Origin: Sphingomonas cavernae | GTDB lineage: Bacteria > Pseudomonadota > Alphaproteobacteria > Sphingomonadales > Sphingomonadaceae | DNA length: 64,000 nucleotides | Direction: 5' to 3' | Assembly (NCBI RefSeq): GCF_003590775.1 | Contig: NZ_QYUM01000003.1 | Location: forward strand, 1,180,501-1,244,500 | Part shown: positions 17,474 through 38,749 of the stretch, piece by piece | Position numbering within the stretch: the stretch's first letter is position 1 | Layout of the letters: each line of letters begins with the position of its first letter | Made by a program: the position numbers and the translations under genes | The notes under the pieces: generated by a model | Told to the model about the DNA's origin: nothing | The model's database searches: none | What the model saw: the letters and a program-made list of their open reading frames with translations, nothing else

Positions 17474-17563
17474 TGGCGGACAGGGTGGGATTCGAACCCA
17501 CGGTGAGCTTGCACCCACGGCGGTTTTCAAGACCGCTGCCTTAAACCACTCGGCCACCTGTCC
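17474..17563 (-). tRNA. tRNA-Ser(UGA)
   Basis: A 90-nt class II tRNA. On the minus strand it begins GGACAGGTGGCCGAGTGG and ends with the paired CCTGTCC, discriminator G and encoded CCA. The anticodon loop CTTGAAAAC gives UGA (plus-strand 'tca' at 17527-17529), reading UCA serine codons. The T-arm GGTTCGAATCC and long variable arm fit tRNA-Ser. Confidence 0.97.
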
Positions 17564-36232: not shown

Positions 36233-36646
36233 ATGATCAAGCAGATCGTCTTCCTGAAAAAGCGCGACGACATGTCCATGCAGGCGTTCATGGACTATTA
36301 CGAGAACCAGCACTCGCAGCTCTCAAAGAAGCTCGGCGCCAAGCCCGCGCTGCCCAATGCGCAGCGTTATGTGCGGCGCTATGTCACGCCCCAACCCAAT
36401 CCGCTGACGGGTGAGGTGATCCATCCTGGCTATGACTGCATCATGGAAATCTGGTGGAACACGCGCGCGGATTTCGAGGCTGCGATGAAGGGGCTCGCCG
36501 ATCCGGCGATGCTGCAGCACCGCCTTGAGGACGAGCGGAAGCTCTTCGCATCGAACAGCAACCCCGTGTGCATCGTCGAGGAGCATGACTCGCCTGTGGG
36601 GCCTGACAATCAGATCCCGAAGGTTATTCCGACGTTCGAAGGATAG
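36233..36646 (+). CDS. EthD-domain protein
   Basis: A 137-residue ferredoxin-like-fold protein of the EthD/dimeric alpha-beta-barrel type: IKQIVFLKKRDDMSMQAFMDYYENQHSQL at the N-terminus with the EthD-typical YYExxH. EthD proteins accompany oxygenase systems with no defined catalytic role. Last gene of the operon before the prophage. Confidence 0.82.
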   Translation: MIKQIVFLKKRDDMSMQAFMDYYENQHSQLSKKLGAKPALPNAQRYVRRYVTPQPNPLTGEVIHPGYDCIMEIWWNTRADFEAAMKGLADPAMLQHRLEDERKLFASNSNPVCIVEEHDSPVGPDNQIPKVIPTFEG

Positions 36647-36927
36647 GGGCGGTTCCCACCTCGATCCGGCTTCGGAGCTTCGCCGGCTTTCAAAGTTCAG
36701 GAAGGTCAGCCCTGCGGGAAAAATCCCCTCAATCAGTGCGCCCGCGCTGATCGGATTTTTCGATCAACGCTTCGCTTGTGATCTGCACGGTTCAAATAGC
36801 CATTGCCGATGTAGCGTGACAGGAGCTTCTGGAGTGTTTGACAAGACATTCTAGAGCACTGGAAAACCGATTGCGCAGCCCTAACAGGAACGGCGGGGCA
36901 GCAAAACCCCGCCGCATTGTCTCTCCG
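36647..36927. other. Gap at the left prophage boundary
   Basis: About 280 bp between the EthD gene and the prophage methylase. A terminator-like hairpin (36893-36914) ends the phage genes. The left end of the prophage should fall here; no clear terminal repeat or target duplication is recognised by eye. Confidence 0.4.
36893..36914 (-). terminator. Hairpin downstream of prophage methylase genes
   Basis: Arms GGCGGGG (36893-36899) and CCCCGCC (36908-36914) with an 8-nt loop containing AAAA. It is 13 nt beyond the end of the longer overlapping frame (36928). Confidence 0.55.
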
Positions 36928-37896
36928 CTAAGACGCCTCTAACTCGCCGCTCAGAGCCTGCTTAGCCGTTCGCATCGAAAGCAGCTTTGAGAGTTGCCCA
37001 CGCGAGCGCTGCAGCCAGACTGCAAACTCCGTTACCGGCACCTCGGGATCGGTCCACCCGATCGGCCAGCCCATCAGATGCTCGTAGAATTGCGGGTTGG
37101 AGATCAGGCCGGCCGTCGAGGATGTCGGCCCATGCTTGAAGCTCAGCAGGACCGGGGGCGAAGATGGGGATGACAGGCACTCCGGGCGGACCCCCAGCGC
37201 CTTCAGCGTCAGCCAGAGCAGCGTCCACGACCGGCTGGCCGTGTTGATCGCATACTGACCGCAACTCCCGTCGGCGATATCCAACGGCTTCGACAGATGG
37301 ATCGTCGCCGGTCCTACCAGCAGCTCCGGAAAGTAACCGGCATCGCTGGCGGTCGGCGTGGGCCAAGATGAAGAGGCGGCGACGCCTGTGGCTCGCGCCT
37401 GCTTCTCGCGCCGTGAACAGTCCTGCCTTAACGCGGTAGTCCATACCTTGAAGGCATTCGACGACGTCGGCGAATCCCACATCGAGGTGGCCCTCGACGT
37501 TCTCGCAAAAGACCCAATCGGGTTCGATTTCCGAGACCACGCGCGCGACCTCGGGCCAGAGATGTCGCGGATCGGCCGAGCCGCGACGCTTGCCGGCCTG
37601 GCTGAACGGTTGGCAGGGATAACCGGCAGCGACGAGATGAACTCGGCCGCGCCACGCGAGGCCGTCAAAGGATCGCAGATCGTCCCATATAGGCGCCTGA
37701 GCCAAGGCCGCGTCCGCCATCCTCGCCACGAGAGTGGCCGAAGCATGGGTTTCCCGCTCGACGTAACCCACAGTGCGATATCTGGGCTCCGCGATATGGA
37801 GGCCGAGGTCGAGCCCACCATATCCAGCGCAGAGGGAGATACCGCGCAGATCGGCGGCGTCGGGCGTAAATTGGGTGTGTAGATCCACAAGGTCAT
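36928..37896 (-). CDS. Overlapping phage ORF in the methylase region (possible second gene)
   Basis: A 322-residue frame on the same strand as the methylase, offset by two bases. It starts at ATG 37896 with a classic overlap of the Com stop. Its first half looks like a shadow. The second half has motifs I recognise from phage proteins accompanying methylases: SWPTPTASDAGYFP, then SNPQFYEHLMGWPIGWTDPE and AVWLQRSRGQLSKLLS. Either both frames are used, or the right half is an ancestral overlap. Function unknown. Confidence 0.4.
   Translation of the reverse strand: MTLWIYTPNLRPTPPICAVSPSALDMVGSTSASISRSPDIALWVTSSGKPMLRPLSWRGWRTRPWLRRLYGTICDPLTASRGAAEFISSLPVIPANRSARPASVAARPIRDISGPRSRAWSRKSNPIGSFARTSRATSMWDSPTSSNAFKVWTTALRQDCSRREKQARATGVAASSSWPTPTASDAGYFPELLVGPATIHLSKPLDIADGSCGQYAINTASRSWTLLWLTLKALGVRPECLSSPSSPPVLLSFKHGPTSSTAGLISNPQFYEHLMGWPIGWTDPEVPVTEFAVWLQRSRGQLSKLLSMRTAKQALSGELEAS
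36962..37888 (-). CDS. DNA (cytosine-5-)-methyltransferase, phage type
   Basis: A 308-residue C5 methylase. Motif I SLCAGYGGLDLGL (SAM), motif IV AGYPCQPFSQAGKRRG with catalytic Cys, motif VI FCENVEGH, motif VIII RRRLFILA, motif X SRGAGNGVCSLAAA. GTG at 37888. It would protect phage DNA from host restriction. It is overlapped along its whole length by another open frame (36928-37896) that also carries phage-like motifs. Follows Com by a few bases. Confidence 0.88.
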   Translation of the reverse strand: MDLHTQFTPDAADLRGISLCAGYGGLDLGLHIAEPRYRTVGYVERETHASATLVARMADAALAQAPIWDDLRSFDGLAWRGRVHLVAAGYPCQPFSQAGKRRGSADPRHLWPEVARVVSEIEPDWVFCENVEGHLDVGFADVVECLQGMDYRVKAGLFTAREAGASHRRRRLFILAHADRQRCRLLSGAAGRTGDDPSVEAVGYRRRELRSVCDQHGQPVVDAALADAEGAGGPPGVPVIPIFAPGPAELQAWADILDGRPDLQPAILRASDGLADRVDRSRGAGNGVCSLAAALAWATLKAAFDANG

Positions 37897-38063
37897 TTCC
37901 CTTCAGCCGTTCTAGCGACGGTCGTGCTGGGGCTCACTGGCCTCATGGTGTTGATCGCGCCGCAACGGCGGCACTTGATTTCGATAGCGGCCGCGATGGC
38001 GTTTGTCTCGGCCTTGAATAACAGCGCACCGCACGAGGCGCACCTAATCGACTCCTTCATCAT
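37893..38063 (-). CDS. com: Com-family zinc-ribbon translational regulator (phage)
   Basis: A 56-residue protein easily missed by length cut-offs. Two CxxC pairs (IRCASCGALL near 8-11; IKCRRCGAIN near 31-34) form the Com/Mu zinc ribbon. In Mu, Com activates translation of the adjacent DNA-modification gene mom; here it stands directly before a C5 methylase, an equivalent role. Tandem ATGs at 38063 and 38060. Confidence 0.8.
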   Translation of the reverse strand: MMKESIRCASCGALLFKAETNAIAAAIEIKCRRCGAINTMRPVSPSTTVARTAEGK

Positions 38064-38185
38064 TGGCACCTATTCGCTTCCCCGCCGGGGCGCCCGGTGG
38101 GGGAACTGAGCACCGCCGCGGCGGTGCGAGGTGCAGGGCTTCCTTCCTGCGGCTGAGGGGCGTTGGCGCGCCCCGGCCTCCCCCT

Positions 38186-38749
38186 TCAAGCAGCGAGGGA
38201 GGCGTCTTCCTTGTCCATGTCGACGGGTTGCTCCGCCGCGCCGATCGCAATGAAGAATTCGTCCTTCTGCGACAGCGCGAGGCCGAGGGCCTCGAGCGCT
38301 TCGGCATGATCGTCGCTGCCGAGCAGCTTGATGATGGCCGCCTTGTCGAGGCTGTGCTGGGTCTTCACCAGCTCGGGCCGCTTCGCCCCGAACAGCTTTG
38401 CGATCATGTCCTCGGCCGACACGTCCTTGGGCAGCTTCAGGCTGGGCGGCGTGCGGCGCTCGCCCATTGTGACGCCCGCGATGTCGATCGAGCGCCGCTT
38501 GCCCTTCGTCAGCTCACCCTGGTTGGCTGCCCACCAAGCCGCGAGCTGCTTGAACAGGGGCTTCATGGCCTCTTTATGTTTGGCGAGCTCGACGGCGAGG
38601 CCGGCCTTAATCGCGGCTATCCCGGCTTCGGCGACGGCCTCGCAACGCTCCATCTCGCGCTCGAGTGCGGCATAGCGAACGACCTGTGCGGTCCCCTCCG
38701 TCAACGTCTGGGGGGCGTCGATCGTCGCCGCCTTTCTCCGTTTGCTCAT
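38186..38749 (-). CDS. gam: Mu Gam-like host-nuclease inhibitor
   Basis: A 187-residue protein matching Mu Gam, a Ku-like DNA-end binder that protects phage DNA from exonucleases. N-terminal helix-rich part (ALEREMERCEAVAEAGIAAIKAG) and the typical RRSIDIAGVTMGERRTPPSLKLPKDVSAEDM core. ATG at 38749 overlaps the previous stop (ATGA). In Mu, gam is an early gene; here it lies after tail genes, showing rearrangement. Confidence 0.8.
   Translation of the reverse strand: MSKRRKAATIDAPQTLTEGTAQVVRYAALEREMERCEAVAEAGIAAIKAGLAVELAKHKEAMKPLFKQLAAWWAANQGELTKGKRRSIDIAGVTMGERRTPPSLKLPKDVSAEDMIAKLFGAKRPELVKTQHSLDKAAIIKLLGSDDHAEALEALGLALSQKDEFFIAIGAAEQPVDMDKEDASLAA

Follow-up and report, generated by a model that had tools for sequence, protein, structure and literature searches.

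Two long reading frames are encoded by the same DNA in a Sphingomonas cavernae methylase gene, lying in the 64,000-nucleotide stretch that we analyzed (the window). The methylase frame (A) and a second frame (B), which is +1 of A, are both open and conserved among relatives, and selective constraint switches along the overlap from A to B and back to A. We consider it likely that these two genes make one enzyme, with A as the catalytic alpha chain and B as a beta chain for recognition and motif IX, assembled as one cytosine methylase. The probable division of one enzyme between the frames, and the sharing of the arrangement by many other phage methylase groups, go beyond the sequence-only reading of this DNA, which had proposed overlapping genes of about 300 codons. 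Both of its frames were present, with its quoted motifs GLADRVDRSRGAGNGV in A and SWPTPTASDAGYFP and NPQFYEHLMGWPIGWTDPE in B.

Locus and genomic setting

The frames and the gene upstream of them are as follows.

36962..37888, minus strand: frame A, C5-cytosine methyltransferase of 308 aa with a GTG start; proposed alpha, catalytic chain
36928..37896, minus strand: frame B, +1 of A, 322 aa from an ATG or 320 aa from a TTG; proposed beta chain
37893..38069, minus strand: Com-like zinc-ribbon gene (Mu Com family) of 58 aa, upstream

Frame A matched phrog_363 (E = 5.2e-54) over residues 11-303 and PF00145 (E = 4.9e-30) over residues 15-181, the latter covering only positions 2-165 of the 324-position profile. 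In the protein search of frame B that the sequence-only reading had advised, B matched phrog_1008 (E = 5.9e-19), as did 64 of 64 aligned relatives, and no gathering-level family was found in Pfam or NCBIfam. With tblastn, frame B had no match in phages at 1e-3 and hit three plasmid records at E values up to 10. The Com-like product matched PF10122 (E = 1.1e-9) and the translational regulator phrog_6417 (E = 2.1e-9). This upstream gene, together with the Mu Gam-like, tail and head genes that neighbor the methylase (phrog_491, phrog_328, phrog_220 and others), indicates a Mu-like prophage. The sole tRNA gene found in the window was tRNA-Ser (tga) at 17474-17563 on the minus strand, and an Rfam search of positions 36500-38400 returned no match.

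Frame B is kept open

Relatives were fetched with B alignments and, independently of B, with A alignments, taking the best 80 places per list. Three further methylase groups were gathered by using as queries the A frames from Salmonella phage S9-5, Paenibacillus phage Bloom and Mycobacterium phage Rhynn. Counts from such capped lists, here and among the methylase groups, describe the best 80 places rather than all phages. Thinning by shared 12-mers reduced 279 sequences to 175, comprising 150 family members, 24 control C5-methylases and one intermediate that was left out. Expected stops were obtained by shuffling codons among synonymous positions of A, which keeps both the A protein and its codon usage.

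In the 150 non-redundant family genes, frame B contained 16 stops against 332 expected, and 12 of these fell in a single alignment column (550) near the 3' end. Frame +2 of the same genes served as a control and had 1,355 stops against 1,445 expected. Up to motif VIII, B held two stops against 218 expected. The set gathered with A gave a similar picture, with six B stops against 158 expected in 68 non-redundant genes from the best 80 loci. When each of the 21 clades was represented by one gene, three B stops were observed against 62.4 expected (sd 5.5), and none of 2,000 shuffles was as low. Frame A was likewise free of stops across the recognition region of B: among the genes with an A frame extending over that region, 0 stops were observed and 268 expected. 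At six loci with a profile score above 300 (L116, L141, L153, L160, L186 and L190), the A match ended before profile position 250. Nine relatives of B were found in viral contigs, including the window's own contig; the other eight shared 54-64 percent identity over nearly the full length, and both frames were open in each.

The 24 more distant control C5-methylases had 136 stops in the +1 frame against 134 expected. Some of them (L034, L036 and L037) are distant relatives with long +1 ORFs, so the contrast with the family is weakened rather than inflated. These +1 ORFs run for 379, 214 and 208 codons, respectively, and that of L036 contains an MGFPEGY motif; the overlap design may extend to such more distant C5-methylases. 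Chance openness of a GC-rich frame is ruled out by the shuffles, by frame +2 and by the 24 other methylases. Stops or frameshifts of B in most homologues had been named as the outcome that would count against two real genes, and 135 of the 150 non-redundant homologues had no B stop in the stretch examined. On this sequence evidence, frame B almost certainly encodes a translated protein under selection.

Constraint alternates between the frames

In this overlap, the first codon position of A (A1) is the third of B, A2 is the first of B, and A3 is the second. At amino-acid identities of 0.85-0.90, flanking genes differed by 0.083, 0.075 and 0.330 at A1, A2 and A3, respectively, and the overlap family, at the same A identity, by 0.116, 0.041 and 0.120. 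In the 3' half of the overlap family these values became 0.173, 0.044 and 0.076, the third position of B thus being the fastest.

Sliding windows over a 73-member clade (1,809 pairs) were A-dominated or balanced up to motif VIII. The recognition region was B-dominated, then balanced just upstream of the LMGWP motif and again B-dominated on LMGWP itself, and motif X was A-dominated (codons 281-295). The B-dominated stretch begins at the following motif.

37342..37365, minus strand: frame B WPTPTASD, +1 of A's ILAHADR just past motif VIII; differences in the 177-191 sliding window are 0.468 at A1 and 0.074 at A3

Across codons 177-191 of this clade, B evolved more slowly than A (Bid 0.93 versus Aid 0.68). 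The window's own clade, with 31 members and 303 pairs, showed the same A-B-A switch with more balanced windows. Among the other groups, S9-5-like genes had a single B-dominated window, at LNPQWVEWFMGWP, and the sliding windows of the Bloom-like and Rhynn-like groups were saturated, with no B-dominated window. Changes that are synonymous in A also altered B less drastically than expected, in both halves of the gene (e.g., a mean BLOSUM62 score of -1.10 versus -1.54 expected).

This codon-substitution analysis, which the sequence-only reading had called for, supports coding in both frames and, with the stop depletion, favors its view that the two overlapping genes are real. Since B is open and has milder changes in both halves and A is stop-free across the B stretch, the full length of both chains seems to be required.

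Probable interlocked start codons and the Com junction

The two proposed starts overlap by a single base.

37888..37890, minus strand: probable B start TTG, directly preceding an invariant TGG
37886..37888, minus strand: A start GTG, with one base in common with the B TTG

Together they form TTGTGG (37885-37890), in which the B TTG is interlocked with the A GTG. A Trp motif opens 148 of the 150 B sequences, and an ATG, GTG or TTG lies close before this Trp in 145 of the 148. The start codon directly precedes the Trp in 63 relatives (the NTG-TGG class) and lies one codon earlier in 82 (the ATG-NNN-TGG class), and the nearest A-frame start codon is one base before TGG in 92 of 148 and ten bases before it in 54 of 148. 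In the NTG-TGG class, TGG is preceded by TTG in 33 relatives, GTG in 20 and ATG in 10. An alignment of start regions from the window and 16 relatives picked from the 63 of this class had TTGTGG in all 17 sequences. The two classes also differ upstream. A Com-like ORF precedes 52 of the 63 NTG-TGG genes versus two of the 82 ATG-NNN-TGG genes. A Shine-Dalgarno-like 5-mer was found in 51 of the 63, and just seven of the 82 had one at positions -21 to -4. The stop codon of Com is often located 28 nt beyond the TGG of B (22 cases), which produces a three-frame overlap there. At 37885-37893 of the window and in Com-associated relatives, Com, B and A occupy all three frames of one strand.

The sequence-only reading had preferred as the B start the ATG at 37896, which overlaps the TGA of Com. 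This is probably wrong, as that ATG lies just 2 nt past the GGG of a Shine-Dalgarno-like AAGGGAA and is absent in five relatives (L004, L005, L006, L008 and L010), a pattern that also disfavors an independent gene beginning there. Judging from these alignments, B probably starts here at the TTG. The start region was also searched for conserved RNA structure, which gave three pairs with zero compensatory changes. In the proposed mechanism, A and B would be translated off one mRNA from interlocked starts; in the Com-associated clade the NTG of B and the GTG of A would share NTGTGG, and Com may control how much of each chain is made relative to the other.

Motifs and predicted folds

In ordinary C5-methylases, motifs VIII and X flank a recognition domain and motif IX. 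Frame A has motifs I-VIII and X, and PCQ and ENV are invariant in 62 aligned sequences. Three motifs were placed as follows.

37604..37624, minus strand: frame A motif IV with the catalytic Cys (GYPCQPF), residues G89-F95 in the alignment
37054..37098, minus strand: frame B NPQFYEHLMGWPIGW, proposed motif IX, with spacing as in LTxRMxARLQGFPDDW of ordinary C5-methyltransferases
37001..37045, minus strand: frame A motif X (RGAGNGVCSLAAALA), with G285, N286, G287 and V288 invariant in 62 sequences

No recognition domain with motif IX was found in the chain of A, where the Pfam match stops at profile position 165 of 324. A regular-expression search of the second half of A found no in-frame motif IX in any of 133 genes from the S9-5-like, Bloom-like and Rhynn-like groups, and 115 of these 133 had a IX-like motif in the +1 frame. 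Motif IX followed by motif X in one frame occurred in 11 of the ORFs gathered, all from L018-L040.

The B consensus LNPxFVEALMGWPxGW matches the spacing of LTxRMxARLQGFPDDW in the control methylases without gaps and at the corresponding position. A motif-IX matrix placed its best B window on LNPxFVEALMGWP in 75 of 150 genes, with low scores throughout; at these low scores, B exceeded A in 94 of 150 and exceeded one shuffle in 105 of 150. Profile comparisons gave no such match. Aligned with hhalign to the C-terminal part of ordinary C5-methyltransferases, B reached a probability of 0.6 percent, away from motif IX, and a 25-column profile of the B motif found no C5-methyltransferase in the PDB. 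Fold searches of the PDB and viral structures with the B model, which is mediocre (pLDDT 64.5, pTM 0.42), also had no match.

The AlphaFold model of A has a confident catalytic core and motif-X helix, and no folded small domain. Its residues 11-90 and 111-180 are mostly above 80-90 pLDDT, and residues 182-222 and 266-284 are under 50. In the B model, residues 1-41, 70-81 and 93-133 are under 50 and residues from about 141 to 320 reach a pLDDT of about 70-88, with a dip near 165-180. The two models are thus predicted to be disordered in complementary places. The cost of overlap to each chain would fall where its partner is folded, the recognition stretch of A and the N-terminal part of B being the predicted disordered parts.

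A proposed single enzyme from two frames

We propose that frame A would give the catalytic chain, with motifs I-VIII and X, and frame B a second chain with the target-recognition domain and motif IX in its C-terminal half, and that the two would join into a heterodimeric cytosine methylase. That B serves as the recognition and motif-IX subunit seems probable. The main competing idea is that B is a real overlapping protein with another task, such as a regulator or a counter-defence protein, overprinted on a self-sufficient methylase. The lack of detected profile or fold similarity to the small domains of C5-methyltransferases, and of a gathering-level NCBIfam or Pfam family, is in keeping with such a protein. 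However, a self-sufficient A is difficult to reconcile with the missing in-frame motif IX (by regular expression) and folded small domain (in the model), the constrained stretch of B is exactly the region missing between motifs VIII and X, and B overlaps a methylase in +1 wherever both ORFs were recognized (23 of 23, several being the same gene, and 9 of 9). We therefore regard this idea as unlikely, though it deserves to be kept in mind.

Two other explanations fare considerably worse. A single polypeptide could arise by two programmed frameshifts, from A to B past motif VIII and from B to A ahead of motif X, and would leave just the A-B-A pattern of constraint that we see. Such a product has no need of the openness of B upstream of motif VIII, nor of that of A through the B stretch, and both frames are depleted in stops (A in genes spanning the region); B also owns a conserved start codon. 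The double frameshift is therefore disfavored, and we give it little credence. Still less credible is that B is open only because high GC content, together with the sequence and codon usage of the methylase, leaves few +1 stops, its motifs being shadows of those of A. Several B motifs do correspond to conserved A motifs read in +1 (WPTPTA from ILAHADR and MGWPIGW from DGLADR), and the GC content of the family is about 0.66. However, shuffles that keep the A protein and codon usage still predict hundreds of stops, groups with GC contents of 0.39-0.61 and 0.45-0.62 behave alike, and B changes more slowly than A where B dominates.

Breadth across phage methylases

The two-frame arrangement is shared beyond this locus. 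phrog_1008 was present in 14 of 200 genomes of the window's phylum. An ORF with B motifs was recognized in 23 of 29 loci obtained, with a methylase ORF in its -1 frame each time (several are the same gene). In 20 records of named phages, both frames were recognized by pattern in nine, with B always +1 of A; the remaining records had a B-like ORF only (three), A only (six) or neither (two). Between motif IV and the LMGWP motif of B, the observed and expected +1 stops in the four methylase groups were 0/184, 0/167 (S9-5-like), 0/274 (Bloom-like) and 1/50.5 (Rhynn-like). Upstream of motif IV, stops were not avoided in the Bloom-like (170 versus 108.5 expected) and Rhynn-like (30 versus 31) groups, which provides an internal control and indicates that B begins later there.

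Annotation is uneven across these genes. PHROG labels phrog_363, which A matches, and phrog_1008, which B matches, both as DNA methyltransferase and catalogues them as two families, and in S9-5 and Bloom both are read from a single stretch of DNA in different frames. Bloom has a methyltransferase annotation on both frames, and in Stenotrophomonas SOVA965 and Synechococcus JY39 B alone is annotated. Xanthomonas phage PhiXhv-28 likewise has two overlapping methyltransferase CDS. The public records of L309, L311, L314 and L527 call either frame or both a methyltransferase or a hypothetical protein. In an Escherichia coli PCP07014 prophage (L318, 1001-1762), a methylase copy with an internal stop is annotated as a pseudogene. 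The Rhynn-like IMG/VR locus L498 has an HNH-endonuclease-like +1 stretch after the B stop, with frame A open through it, which resembles the ShiLan element (PMC11855218).

On balance, we lean toward the view that a large proportion of phage "orphan" C5-methylases are half-enzymes as annotated, with catalysis in one frame and target choice in +1, and that phrog_363 and phrog_1008 are one dual-coded enzyme. With the same slight preference, we would extend this to phages of Pseudomonadota, Bacillota, Actinomycetota, Bacteroidota and Cyanobacteriota. If true, many phage methylases are annotated without their recognition subunit; an annotated gene cloned alone would yield a protein that is inactive or lacks specificity, and attempts to assign motifs from that chain would not succeed. 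The function of phrog_1008-type phage proteins would become directly testable at the bench. This would also be an exceptionally long and widespread example of one enzyme whose two proteins are read from a single stretch of DNA in different frames, and its recognition domain would diversify under a constraint shared with the catalytic gene. The clean segment-by-segment division of constraint would suit it to testing theories of gene overlap.

Comparison with known systems

Split C5-methylases are already known. A literature search of partial coverage found no description of the full-length overlap, its reach across phage groups or the A-B-A division of constraint. The ShiLan element is an out-of-frame HNH gene within a phage methylase, an inserted homing endonuclease (PMC11855218). 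Like it, frame B is concealed in another frame of a phage methylase gene, but it is no insertion and has no HNH. M.AquI is a split C5-methylase with the C5 motifs over two chains, the smaller subunit holding the distal variable region and motifs IX-X (PMC3404938). Here, in contrast, motif X remains on the catalytic chain and the genes share DNA in two frames. M.EcoHK31I has its 176-aa beta gene nested within its alpha gene in a different frame, and our second chain would likewise come from an overlapping frame. It is a two-polypeptide C5-methylase (YGGCCR) whose larger chain has motifs I-VIII and X, with motif IX on a separate smaller polypeptide (PMC3404938). The chain of frame A likewise has I-VIII and X without a recognizable IX. 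In M.EcoHK31I the recognition domain is assigned to the larger chain (PMC3404938), whereas here the recognition region evolves under B. Comparing the systems by description, B also differs in covering all of A and beginning ahead of it.
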